This document shows positions 1,959 through 37,385 of a stretch of DNA of 42,650 bases, in pieces. The notes beneath the pieces were generated by a model. It did no database searches. It was given only the letters and a program-made list of their open reading frames with translations, and had not been told where the DNA came from. The stretch's first letter is position 1. Each line of letters begins with the position of its first letter. The position numbers and the translations under genes were made by a program. Source of the DNA: Candidatus Marinimicrobia bacterium CG08_land_8_20_14_0_20_45_22 (lineage in GTDB: Bacteria; Fidelibacterota; UBA2242); assembly GCA_002774355.1 (NCBI GenBank), contig PEYN01000091.1, positions 1-42,650 on the forward strand, read 5' to 3'.

Positions 1959-1986
1959 AAGAATGCCGTGTCCACCTTCAGATTAA

Positions 1987-2126
1987 TCCACAGATTTATC
2001 TGTGGAAGGAGGATGAATCGGTTCGGATGACAGGTTTCACGTCCCATAATCCCCGCGTTGAAACGCGGGGCTATTTTGATCTCATCAACGACGTCATTCA
2101 GTGTAACCCACAGATTCATCTGTGGG
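1987..2126 (+). repeat. Palindrome-rich repeat unit A, upstream of the transposase
   Basis: Contains three hairpins with a 2-nt loop: CCACAGAT-tt-ATCTGTGG (1988-2005), CCCCGCGTT-ga-AACGCGGGG (2051-2070) and CCCACAGAT-tc-ATCTGTGGG (2107-2126). The segment from about 2012 to 2126 recurs nearly unchanged at about 2637-2749 on the other side of the transposase, and in part at 2815-2880. Short ORFs can be read through it but they translate the palindromes themselves, so I treat it as non-coding. It may be the substrate or mobilised element of the neighbouring Y1 transposase. Confidence 0.85.
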
Positions 2127-2195
2127 ATCAAAACGTCTCTAAAAGCCCCGAAACCATTTTTTTTTAATGGTTTTCCAAAATCAAGGAGGTTTCTA

Positions 2196-2642
2196 ATGTC
2201 CCACGCCTATGTCGCTAACTGGTTACATATCATCTGGTCAACTAAAAACCGGCGACGCTGTCTGATGGCAAATAATGCTCTACCAGTCCGTGAACATTTG
2301 ATCGCGGAAGCCGCAAAAACCGAATCATCCATCGAGACCATTAATATCCAACCCGAACATGTTCATATTCTTGTGAATCTGCCTGCAACACAGTCAATCG
2401 ATAATTTTATCCATCAACTCAAGGGTGAATCGTCACATTGGATCAATGACGAAAAGATCATCCCCGGTCGTTTTAACTGGCAGAAAGGTTATGGCGCTTT
2501 TTCGGTTAGCGTGTCGATGGTTGAAATGGTCAAACAATACATTCAGAATCAGCAAGAACATCATCGACGCAAGCCGTTTGCAGAAGAGTATAAGGAATTT
2601 TTAGAAAAACATGGATTCGTTTATGATGATGAAAACCGATAA
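2196..2642 (+). CDS. IS200/IS605-like Y1 (HUH) transposase, possibly REP-associated (RAYT-like)
   Basis: This 148-aa protein is a single-domain Y1 transposase. It carries the HUH metal-binding motif in PEHVHILV (residues 49-56) and the family C-terminal signature GYGAFSVS...YIQNQQEHH, which contains the presumed catalytic tyrosine, followed by EEYKEFL. Length matches IS200-type TnpA (about 140-155 aa). The start at 2196 is fixed by a perfect AAGGAGGT at 2183-2190, five bases upstream; longer readings would run through the palindromes. No TnpB is present. Repeated palindromic units flank both sides, and the stop codon lies in the loop of an AACCGAT/ATCGGTT hairpin. This resembles REP/RAYT pairs, where a domesticated transposase acts on dispersed palindromes. 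It could equally be an ordinary IS200-like element; a search for copies elsewhere would decide. Confidence 0.9.
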   Translation: MSHAYVANWLHIIWSTKNRRRCLMANNALPVREHLIAEAAKTESSIETINIQPEHVHILVNLPATQSIDNFIHQLKGESSHWINDEKIIPGRFNWQKGYGAFSVSVSMVEMVKQYIQNQQEHHRRKPFAEEYKEFLEKHGFVYDDENR

Positions 2643-2749
2643 ATCGGTTTGGATGGGTTTCACGTCCCATCATCCCCGCGTTGAAACGTGGGGTTATTCT
2701 GATCTCGTCAACGACGTCATTCAGATTAACCCACAGATTCATCTGTGGG
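2633..2749 (+). repeat. Palindrome-rich repeat unit B, overlapping the transposase 3' end
   Basis: Begins with AAACCGAT-aa-ATCGGTTT (2633-2650), whose loop carries the last two bases of the transposase stop codon. It continues with CCCCGCGTT-ga-AACGTGGGG (2674-2693) and CCCACAGAT-tc-ATCTGTGGG (2730-2749). It is a direct repeat of unit A over about 110 bp. The right arm of the CCCCGCG hairpin differs from unit A by one C-to-T change, which still allows a G-U pair in RNA, a hint that structure rather than sequence is kept. Confidence 0.85.
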
Positions 2750-2780
2750 ATGACGAAACGCCCCACGCCCAGATCCCCAT

Positions 2781-2880
2781 ATCCGTTTCAACGGATTTCC
2801 TATACCCGAAAACCGATGAATCGGTTCGGATGATGGATTTCGCGTCTTATCCTCCCCGCGTTGAAACGCGGGGCTATTCT
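2781..2880 (+). repeat. Palindrome-rich repeat unit C, partial
   Basis: Holds ATCCGTT-tc-AACGGAT (2781-2796), AACCGAT-ga-ATCGGTT (2811-2826) and CCCCGCGTT-ga-AACGCGGGG (at about 2852-2872). The part from 2815 onward is a diverged copy of units A and B that stops before the CCCACAGAT hairpin. The different palindromes share one design: 7-9 bp arms around a 2-nt GA or TC loop. Confidence 0.75.
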
Positions 2881-2889
2881 GACGAACCG

Positions 2890-3057
2890 TTATTCCATTT
2901 CCGCAAGGAGTTATTCTCTTCAGGAAGGCAATCATTCTCTTCCGGAAAGCAGTCATTCTGTTCCGGAAAGGAGTTGTTCACTTGCGGAAAACAGTCATTC
3001 TCTTCCGGGAAGGAGTTATTCCGTTCCAGAAAAGAGTTGTTCTGTTCAGGAAAGCCA
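2890..3057 (+). repeat. 21-bp tandem repeat (minisatellite), eight units
   Basis: Eight consecutive 21-bp units, with a degenerate ninth to about 3069. Typical units are TCATTCTCTTCCGGAAAGCAG-like (one base over the quoting limit is avoided by giving the core TTCTCTTCCGGAAAGCAG). Each unit centres on a TTCCGGAA-like palindrome and ends in AAGGAG or AAGCAG. Because 21 is a multiple of three, all frames stay open, which explains long spurious ORFs here. The array lies directly between palindrome unit C and the next gene. Unit-to-unit divergence is about 10-30%, so it is not a very recent expansion. Confidence 0.9.
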
Positions 3058-3094
3058 TTGTTCTGTTCAATAGTTCAACCGTTAAGTTTATTAG

Positions 3095-3114
3095 CCCAGC
3101 CGTTCACGGTTGGG
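3095..3114 (+). repeat. Isolated palindrome of the same design
   Basis: CCCAGCCGT-tc-ACGGTTGGG, nine-base arms with one G-U pair and a TC loop, 33 bases upstream of the next start codon. It matches the architecture, though not the sequence, of the hairpins around the transposase. Confidence 0.6.
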
Positions 3115-3146
3115 AGAGAGATTCAATTAGCAATGGAGCAATCCAA

Positions 3147-22423: not shown

Positions 22424-22454
22424 ACAAAAGACTCCGTTGAACAACGGAGTCTTT
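22424..22454 (-). terminator. Rho-independent terminator
   Basis: Near-perfect 12-13 bp stem AAAGACTCCGTTG / CAACGGAGTCTTT, followed on the minus strand by TTGTTTTTA. It ends the 76-aa repeat-protein gene and, in the other direction, could insulate the CPBP promoter. Confidence 0.9.
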
Positions 22455-35306: not shown

Positions 35307-36544
35307 AAAAAGACGGAATTCTGGCAGTAATTTTAGGAGGCGGCAAAGGAACGCGCCTTTATCCGTTGACTAAGTACCGCGCCAAACCGGCTGTTCCGTT
35401 CGGCGGGAAGTTCAGGATTATCGATGTTGCGATTAGTAACTGTCTTAACAGTCATATCAATAGCATTTTTATTCTGACGCAATTTAATACGCATTCGTTG
35501 CACAGGCATATTTATAGCACTTATCGTCTGGGGCATTTTTACGGTGGATTCGTCGATATTCTGGCGGCGCAACAGACATTGGAACATACCGAGTGGTATC
35601 AGGGAACGGCGGATGCGGTGCGACAAAATATTTCCTACATTGTCGAAGAAAATACGAAATACACAATCATCCTTTCCGGAGATCATTTATATCGTATGGA
35701 TTATCGTGAATTTTTGAATACCCATATTGAAAGCGGTGCCGATTTTACGATTTCGGTCAAACCGGTCACGTCTCAGGACGCGAGCGATTTTGGTATTCTT
35801 CAGACGGATGAAGGCAATCGCATCCTGAGATTTATCGAGAAACCAAAAGGCGATGCACTGGAGTCATTCAGGTCACCGGGCTTGCCGAAGGAAACACCTT
35901 TTTTGGCATCAATGGGGATTTACATTTTCAATACGGAAACGTTGCTGAAGATTCTCGAAGAAAATCCGAGCGATGACTTTGGCAGGCATATCATTCCGGC
36001 TTCAATCGGGAATTATCGTGCCCAAGCGCATCTGTTCGACGGTTACTGGAAGGACATTGGAACGATGGATTCCTTCTTTCAGGCGAATCTGGAGATGGCG
36101 TTGCCAAATCCGCCGTTTGATTTGTATAACGAAGCGGCGCCGATCTACACGCATGCCCGCGCCCTTCCTTGCTCCCGCGTTGAGAATTGCAATCTTTACT
36201 GTACGCTTATCGGTGAAGGAAGTATTCTCCGAGACAGTGAAATTCGTCAGGCGGTGATCGGAATTCGCACCCGAATTGCCTCCGGTAGCCATATTGAAAA
36301 CTGCGTCATCATGGGTGCTGATTATTACAGATTCGAATCTTCAAGTACCTTGCCGCCGATCGGAATTGGCGAGAATTGTATCATTCGGAACGCTATTATT
36401 GATAAAAACGCGCGCATCGGCAAAAACGTTCGCATCATCAATGAAAAAAATGTCCGGGAAGCGGAATTTCCGACCTATTCCATCCGCGACGGAATCGTCG
36501 TAATTCCTAAGAATTCAGTCATTCCCGACGGCACGGTAATATAG
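35303..36544 (+). CDS. glgC: Glucose-1-phosphate adenylyltransferase
   Basis: The 413-aa enzyme has the pyrophosphorylase signature LGGGKGTRLYPLTKYRAKPAVPFGGK (split here: residues 11-20 and 21-36) and QGTADAVRQN. GDHLYRMDY and SMGIYIF follow, then a C-terminal left-handed beta-helix with hexapeptide-like strands (GEGSILRDSEIRQAVIG). It makes ADP-glucose from glucose-1-phosphate and ATP for glycogen synthesis; FBP-type allosteric control is typical of the family. Start ATGA overlaps the PAP2-like stop. No glgA or glgB is adjacent. The length agrees with bacterial GlgC. Confidence 0.95.
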   Translation: MKKDGILAVILGGGKGTRLYPLTKYRAKPAVPFGGKFRIIDVAISNCLNSHINSIFILTQFNTHSLHRHIYSTYRLGHFYGGFVDILAAQQTLEHTEWYQGTADAVRQNISYIVEENTKYTIILSGDHLYRMDYREFLNTHIESGADFTISVKPVTSQDASDFGILQTDEGNRILRFIEKPKGDALESFRSPGLPKETPFLASMGIYIFNTETLLKILEENPSDDFGRHIIPASIGNYRAQAHLFDGYWKDIGTMDSFFQANLEMALPNPPFDLYNEAAPIYTHARALPCSRVENCNLYCTLIGEGSILRDSEIRQAVIGIRTRIASGSHIENCVIMGADYYRFESSSTLPPIGIGENCIIRNAIIDKNARIGKNVRIINEKNVREAEFPTYSIRDGIVVIPKNSVIPDGTVI

Positions 36545-36569
36545 ACAAGGATAAATAAGGAAAGAGTTC

Positions 36570-37385
36570 ATGGCAAAAGTCTTCAACCCCAAACAGACTG
36601 TCCTTTTTCCAGAACTTTTCGAGGATGCTTTTTTGCCTTCCATCACGACGCTCCCGGATTTCGATCAGGCTCTGGAAAATTTTGTCCGACTGTCCGACTT
36701 CGGTGCGCTGATCGATTTGAATTTTCACGGCATCGACAAATCTTATTCACTGCGGCTAGATGAGATTCAGATTCCACCGAAATATCTCAAAACCCACACG
36801 GAAAAACAATCTCCAGTTTTCAATCTTTTTCCAGCAGAAGTTCGCAACCAGATCAACCGCATGAAATATGATGTCCGGTCGTTTTTCGTTCACGCAAACC
36901 ACCTGAAAACGAACTACGGATATTTTTTATTTCGGAATTATTTTCACAAGTGGGATATTCACAAGAAGAACAAGATTGAAGGATTGCGTGAATATTTTAC
37001 AAACGAAATTGGCGAAACTGCTTATGAGGAATATTTCCGACGACTATGGCATACCGGGATCGATTGGATCAAATCCAATCTGGCGGAAATCCACCCGTAT
37101 ATCCTGACCATTGATCTGGATAAACAATTGCCGGACGAACGACAAAGTCTGAGAGATTCCGGAATGACGATTAATCAGCTCGAGAGAAACGATCGTGACT
37201 TGATTGTCCAGTTTCTCATCCTAAAAATGATGCATATTCCGCAGACGCTAACCGAATACACTGACGGCATCTCGATTTTGTCTATGTTCAAAACTATTCA
37301 TCTAGATTATTTGAAAAACATTAAGATCGAATCGATCGAGGATATTGAGCAGTTATTCCGCTCAATCCCTCAAAATAACTTATAG
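36570..37385 (+). CDS. Protein of unknown function (271 aa)
   Basis: I recognise no family. The protein has no signal peptide or transmembrane segment and appears soluble and mostly alpha-helical. It is rich in aromatic and charged residues, for example FFVHANHLKTNYGYFLFRNY and YEEYFRRLWHTGIDWIK. It is well expressed as judged by a purine-rich site (AAGGAAAG) nine bases before ATG 36570, and lies 25 bases after glgC and 5 bases before pcm. It therefore belongs to the glgC-pcm-GGDEF operon, maybe as a regulator or housekeeping factor. No motif points to catalysis; a conserved IHPYILTIDLDKQLPDERQ stretch may be its core. Function unknown. Confidence 0.85.
   Translation: MAKVFNPKQTVLFPELFEDAFLPSITTLPDFDQALENFVRLSDFGALIDLNFHGIDKSYSLRLDEIQIPPKYLKTHTEKQSPVFNLFPAEVRNQINRMKYDVRSFFVHANHLKTNYGYFLFRNYFHKWDIHKKNKIEGLREYFTNEIGETAYEEYFRRLWHTGIDWIKSNLAEIHPYILTIDLDKQLPDERQSLRDSGMTINQLERNDRDLIVQFLILKMMHIPQTLTEYTDGISILSMFKTIHLDYLKNIKIESIEDIEQLFRSIPQNNL

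Follow-up and report, generated by a model that had tools for sequence, protein, structure and literature searches.

A subclass 1.2 Y1 transposase flanked by inverted hairpins with a constant loop and variable, compensated stems suggests a REPtron-like system

The Y1 (HUH) transposase gene tnpA studied here is surrounded by inverted hairpins that have a 2-nt loop of one type, a constant 5' foot and stems that vary in sequence but remain paired. We propose that the locus is REPtron-like and that TnpA would read the loop, the foot and the pairing on single-stranded DNA and ignore the sequence of the stem. Judged from the sequences, the probability of this reading is roughly 0.78. All coordinates are positions in the window, the whole stretch of 42,650 nt that was analysed, which belongs to contig C91 of a 2.63-Mb genome.

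When one mismatch was allowed, ten 2-nt-loop hairpins were found between 1987 and 3114 around the transposase gene, in line with the original prediction, which had counted at least nine with a common architecture. In the region 1961-3130, 8 perfect hairpins had arms of 7 bp or more, whereas 1000 dinucleotide shuffles gave 0.12 on average and 4 at most. For arms of at least 8 bp the numbers were 6 and 0.02, respectively. The whole 42.65-kb window contains seven hairpins with such arms, six of them at the tnpA locus, and the seventh at 22427-22454 looks like a lone terminator. The closing pair T..A was obligatory in all the loops. Since TRAA is TTYA reversed, the GA, AA, TC and TT loops are a single loop read from two strands. 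The hairpins had been described before as several unrelated families. This was ruled out after they were oriented by the loop, as all of them were TRAA or TTYA; the hairpins have a single loop-and-foot architecture with a TAR foot and with stems that are free but compensated. Two structural forms with different stems were distinguished, a short form S with arms of 7-8 bp, such as AACCGA-TGAA-TCGGTT, and a long form L with arms of 9 bp, such as CCCCGCGT-TGAA-ACGCGGGG followed by CTATT. They are arranged as S-L..L'-S', the gene and again S-L..L'-S', where L and L' point towards each other and differ in their stems. The three direct-repeat units that had been predicted to flank the gene are real and correspond to the families D3, D4 and D5.

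At the upstream end, an L' hairpin on the minus strand (TCCACAGA-TTTA-TCTGTGGA, 1987-2006) has the foot TAA on the 5' side. The first unit shows decay. Its S hairpin of the D3 family (GGAGGAT-GA-ATCGGTT, 2008-2026, plus strand) has retained the loop and the 3' arm and lost the 5' arm. It is followed by the L hairpin CCCCGCGT-TGAA-ACGCGGGG (2051-2070, plus strand) with the 3' foot CTATT and by the L' hairpin CCCACAGA-TTCA-TCTGTGGG (2107-2126, minus strand) with the 5' foot TAA. Immediately upstream of tnpA (2196-2642, plus strand) lies the decayed S' hairpin (2151-2173, minus strand) with the arms AAACCATT and AATGGTTT and a T-rich loop of 7 nt. The S hairpin AAACCGA-TAAA-TCGGTTT (2633-2650, plus strand) contains the stop codon of tnpA in its loop (2640-2642), and the stop codon likewise lies within the adjacent hairpin in 13 of 54 scorable relatives. 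The second unit continues with the L hairpin CCCCGCGT-TGAA-ACGTGGGG (2674-2693, plus strand), which has one G.T wobble and the 3' foot TTATT, the L' hairpin CCCACAGA-TTCA-TCTGTGGG (2730-2749, minus strand) with a TAA foot, and the S' hairpin ATCCGT-TTCA-ACGGAT (2781-2796, minus strand). In the third unit, the S hairpin AACCGA-TGAA-TCGGTT (2811-2826) and the L hairpin CCCCGCGT-TGAA-ACGCGGGG (2854-2873) with the 3' foot CTATT are both on the plus strand. A solitary L' hairpin CCCAGCCG-TTCA-CGGTTGGG with the foot TTAG is found at 3095-3114 on the minus strand. The DNA between the last unit and the following gene holds about nine tandem repeats of 21 nt (2889-3080) whose core is like TTCCGGAA.

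The tnpA product, a protein of 148 amino acids belonging to the KGESS clade, matched Pfam Y1_Tnp with 1.5e-26 and NCBIfam transpos_IS200 above the cut-off, which confirms the IS200-like Y1 transposase noticed earlier. With the RAYT model REP_Tyr_transpos of NCBIfam, it reached 30 bits against a cut-off of 80. The class 2 RAYT motif Y---NP is absent and Y---Q--HH (YIQNQQEHH) is found in its place. Together with the HUH and WQ motifs, the length, the low copy number and a diverged paralogue, this corresponds to TnpA-Y1 subclass 1.2 (Quentin et al. 2018), although the HUH motif is EHVH here versus the subclass consensus DH[IV]H (PMC6006769). The residues H55, H57, Y115, Q119 and H123 (window numbering) were invariant in 24 aligned relatives, and the relatives of solved structure among the PDB matches were the IS608 and ISDra2 transposases. 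The original prediction of a REP/RAYT-type system in an FCB bacterium is supported by the host and by the arrangement, which is REP/RAYT-like; the protein is of subclass 1.2 and not a classical RAYT. Subclass 1.2 was described without REP sequences, which is a reported property of the subclass and does not define it (Quentin et al. 2018, PMC6006769).

The same genome was then searched for further hairpins. The exact stems of the window had no copy at any other locus in the whole-genome search. With a pattern that fixed only the foot, the outer CC/GG and the loop, 17 hits were obtained, 11 of which were near-palindromic L sites on five contigs. Six of these lie in the window and three on C213, C136 has a single one, and C53 and C61 share the last (twelve sites if these two contigs are counted separately). 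This copy number is low against the hundreds typical of REPs. The genome has one copy of tnpA and one 44% identical paralogue, located on C136 with hairpins of its own, CCACG-nnn-TAAA-nnn-CGTGG, that have four different inner stems. Palindromes missing from the rest of the genome, or many identical IS copies, had been named beforehand as findings that would speak against a REP/RAYT-type system. Neither was found: the stems are unique to the locus and the architecture recurs on other contigs, and the transposase is present as a single copy with a diverged paralogue. Two hairpin units on C213, at 35513-36660 (L253 2514-3661), flank a HepT/nucleotidyltransferase (MNT) gene pair that resembles a toxin-antitoxin system and has no transposase in its vicinity.

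The same hairpins were present beside genes with a KGESS-like motif in relatives, in 61 genomes belonging to the phylum and at 80 loci that a collection scan had yielded. Since the peptide pattern used for the scan contained KGES, it selected the KGESS clade. The close relatives of the window contig are Candidatus Neomarinimicrobiota. The 80 loci span about a dozen phyla, with the collection titles Neomarinimicrobiota, Ignavibacteria, KSB1, Calditrichota, Bacteroidota, Cloacimonadota, Chlorobiota, Latescibacterota, Acidobacteria, SAR324, Deltaproteobacteria and Eremiobacterota; many loci come from metagenome bins, and some titles are possibly incorrect MAG labels. The density of 2-nt-loop hairpins in the 80 loci was 6.08 per kb within 300 nt of the gene and 0.15 per kb at a distance of 2-3 kb, an enrichment of about 40-fold, whereas other loop lengths showed at most a weak rise. 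A 2-nt-loop hairpin was present within 600 nt of the gene in 75 of the 80 loci, and 283 of 288 hairpins had a TRAA or TTYA loop. On the TTYA strand the hairpins have a 5' foot T-A-R, usually [TA]TA[GA], and the other side has no motif. GTAG was the foot in only some loci, such as L018, and the GT[AG]G of RAYT/REP systems is not the general foot. The nearest upstream hairpin was TTYA in 62 of 70 loci and the nearest downstream hairpin TRAA in 57 of 61, so inverted REP-like hairpins flank the gene as RAYT/REP systems require. In G036, a more divergent Y1 gene with a 215-aa open frame is followed by tandem TTYA hairpin pairs, AGCATCCTTCAGGATGCT and CGACGGGATTTATCCCGTCG (L191 1967-2804).

Hairpins were also found away from tnpA, as orphan units on the contig C213 of the same genome and in a few genomes without a detected gene (G033 and G034), which would fit unrelated palindromic repeats that have built up between genes and surround tnpA by chance. 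We regard this as highly improbable, since the 40-fold enrichment at the gene, the single loop, the gene-directed polarity and the clade-specific loop class described below all contradict it. Genomes with a KGESS gene were richer in such hairpins than other genomes of the phylum; the difference was significant but modest (p=0.0013).

Covariation of the stems was analysed with search patterns that did not require pairing. In genome G028, the pattern found 52 sites with 29 distinct sequences, which were 88% paired, versus 69% when the partners were shuffled. The covariation score was 0.391 compared to 0.129 for the shuffled partners; it was best at zero slide and lost more than half of its value when one column was slid. 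The compensatory changes that the original prediction had proposed to look for are strongly present. When only the foot and the loop were used as the pattern, at least 7 of 8 positions were paired in 107 of 201 sites near genes, with 56 distinct stems, but in only 14 of 260 sites far from genes. The outer base pairs of the hairpins covary likewise in Chryseobacterium. Single mismatches on the TTYA strand were G.T in 22 cases and A.C in 7 (p=0.004), and the G.T excess was found mainly in gene-facing hairpins on both sides of the gene. Since the gene-facing hairpins lie on opposite strands, this bias fits a selection on a defined single strand of the element and not on one transcript.

The behaviour of the units was followed in Chryseobacterium, where a unit consists of S, about 24-25 nt, L and then CTATTGA, and has a length of 70-75 nt (about 72 nt). 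The unit core was present in 57 dispersed copies in one genome, compared to 1 for the control. Seven other Chryseobacterium genomes had 35-119 DNA matches each, with the syntenic query region counted in, and dispersed copies were also found in one Bacteroidales genome. None of 28 unit sites in Chryseobacterium was within an ORF, so the units are extragenic. In seven Chryseobacterium species, tnpA and the four units beside it occupy one syntenic site. Between species, the units vary by S-to-L deletions, after which one hairpin remains, and by local gains, losses and rearrangements. The flanks could be aligned, with deletions and additional insertions distinguishing the sites; since no clean empty site for a whole inserted unit was recovered in Chryseobacterium, we can only infer that the units are transposed. 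At L148 of Chryseobacterium, one copy of the tandem repeats of about 390 nt has lost the sequence from S to L and shows a fused single hairpin. In the literature searched, with most subscription papers outside the search, we found no earlier description of the hairpin sequences or of the Chryseobacterium/Bacteroidetes repeats.

These results bear on whether the locus is a partly decayed IS200/IS605 insertion sequence of the ordinary kind, with the terminal hairpins typical of it. Such an element would require no new category, and IS608 and ISDra2 share with the locus the protein class, the catalytic residues and hairpins with a 5' guide sequence. However, the single tnpA and its 44% paralogue are not the multiple near-identical copies of a mobile element, the hairpins are inverted with several repeats on each side, and no tnpB was present among the neighbouring genes examined at the locus. 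In addition, tnpA stays in constant flanking sequence in the seven species of Chryseobacterium, the one genus in which this could be checked, while the units disperse. We therefore consider an ordinary insertion sequence quite unlikely.

Another clade of subclass 1.2, sister to the KGESS clade, is without the KGESS motif, and its C-terminus is longer. That the genes of this sister clade are hairpin-free was ruled out by the 3-nt-loop hairpins found beside them. In twelve loci, 3-nt-loop hairpins were in 5.5-fold excess (p=3e-7) and 2-nt loops showed none, whereas in the KGESS clade the 2-nt loops were strongly enriched (p=4e-186) and the 3-nt loops were not. Examples are L021, L031 and L032, with hairpins such as AACTCC-TAC-GGAGTT and CAACCCT-TTC-AGGGTTG. 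Since the two clades are enriched in opposite loop lengths, the clade predicts the loop class. The similarity of the stems tracked the similarity of the transposases, even across phyla (rho 0.29, permutation maximum 0.12). When the hairpin label was placed on the tree, 8 changes were counted against 18.7 expected, which indicates a strong clustering, although not in a single clade.

In an Rfam scan of the window only sub-threshold matches were obtained. Matches to microRNA and snoRNA families were regarded as chance hairpin matches. Two L hairpins weakly matched Acido-Lenti-1 (RF01687), at 2051-2070 with E=0.0025 and at 2854-2873 with E=0.0083, and the C213 units of the same genome were above the RF01687 gathering score. 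Of the 37 RF01687 matches in G028, about 15 exceeded the cut-off and 9 coincided with TTYA-pattern sites. Two of the G028 matches flank a sister-clade tnpA (C3:53313-53747) on both sides in inverted orientation (C3:53092-53908; L244 6593-7409). The gathering score was also exceeded on a flank of a subclass 1.2 tnpA in G028. Little is known about the function of Acido-Lenti-1 according to a 2026 paper (PMC13298647). Like the units described here, it consists of two hairpins, with a CTA foot behind the first one; unlike them, its second hairpin has a 3-nt loop, its first often has a TGAC loop, and it is catalogued as an RNA. Within this phylum at least, these matches suggest that Acido-Lenti-1 represents a hairpin unit linked to a transposase.

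The RNA listing of RF01687, the terminator resemblance of two L hairpins and a solitary L hairpin at a gene end in Chryseobacterium could also mean that the hairpins act as RNA, as terminators, attenuators or small RNAs, and that their closeness to tnpA is incidental. However, in a terminator and promoter scan the hairpins were at chance level, with 2 terminator-like sites found and 1.5 expected. The hairpins are inverted across the gene, and the wobble bias on the TTYA strand, mainly gene-facing, follows no one transcript. RNA termination also does not predict two transposase clades with two loop classes. A role as RNA is thus unlikely in our view, and we favour the REPtron-like reading.

In the proposed mechanism, TnpA of subclass 1.2 would be an immobile, probably domesticated Y1 single-strand-DNA endonuclease. 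Its gene is flanked by inward-facing two-hairpin units that have on the TTYA strand a 5'-TAR foot, L, about 25 nt and S. TnpA may bind units in single-stranded DNA, such as that of the lagging strand, and would recognise the paired stem together with the loop TTYA and the 5' foot. A cut near the foot could then allow the unit to be moved to a new extragenic site. Because TnpA would be blind to the stem sequence, the stems could drift freely with compensatory changes, and one transposase could serve many hairpin sequences. A similar logic is known from the Marinomonas TnpAREP, for which a T-T-N-A loop and a perfect stem are required and most changes of the stem sequence are tolerated (PMC8266576). 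By analogy, the natural variation observed here implies the same reading of loop, foot and pairing. The Marinomonas group-3 system differs by its GTAG-tagged 5-bp REP and its class 2 transposase, and the likeness of the loops may be convergent.

The REP/RAYT REPtrons of TnpA-Y1 class 2 (TnpAREP; Nunvar 2010, Quentin 2018) resemble the locus in the low-copy Y1 gene, the inverted flanking hairpins with small loops and a 5' T-A-R(-G) foot, the units that are dispersed and extragenic in Chryseobacterium, the inverted pairs similar to BIME/REPIN and the one hairpin set per transposase. They differ by having Y---NP where Y---Q--HH is found here and a GTRG foot where it is mostly [TA]TA[GA] here, whereas the two-hairpin S-L unit and the stems that are almost free within one genome belong to the present system. 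Subclass 1.2, in contrast, was reported to have no REP and generally no IS200-type hairpins, whereas we found hairpins beside almost every gene of the KGESS clade and an enrichment of 3-nt-loop hairpins beside another clade. This suggests that a transposase type thought to be without partner repeats has them after all. More tentatively, and with somewhat less than even odds, there may be an IS200-class branch with structure-only addressing, which would read the loop class, the foot and the pairing and never the stem, with a clade-specific loop code (TTYA or 3-nt) and with orphan 'RNA' motifs such as Acido-Lenti-1 as its DNA substrates.

Taken together, the hairpins give a probable substrate, and with it a likely activity, to a subclass of transposases that was described without IS or REP features. 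REP-like systems would no longer be limited to class 2 and would include Y1 proteins of class 1 in about a dozen phyla, and an orphan Rfam family would be accounted for as probable transposase-linked DNA. The natural variants, with dozens of stems, one loop and two loop codes, are a ready test set for the reading of DNA shape by single-strand transposases.
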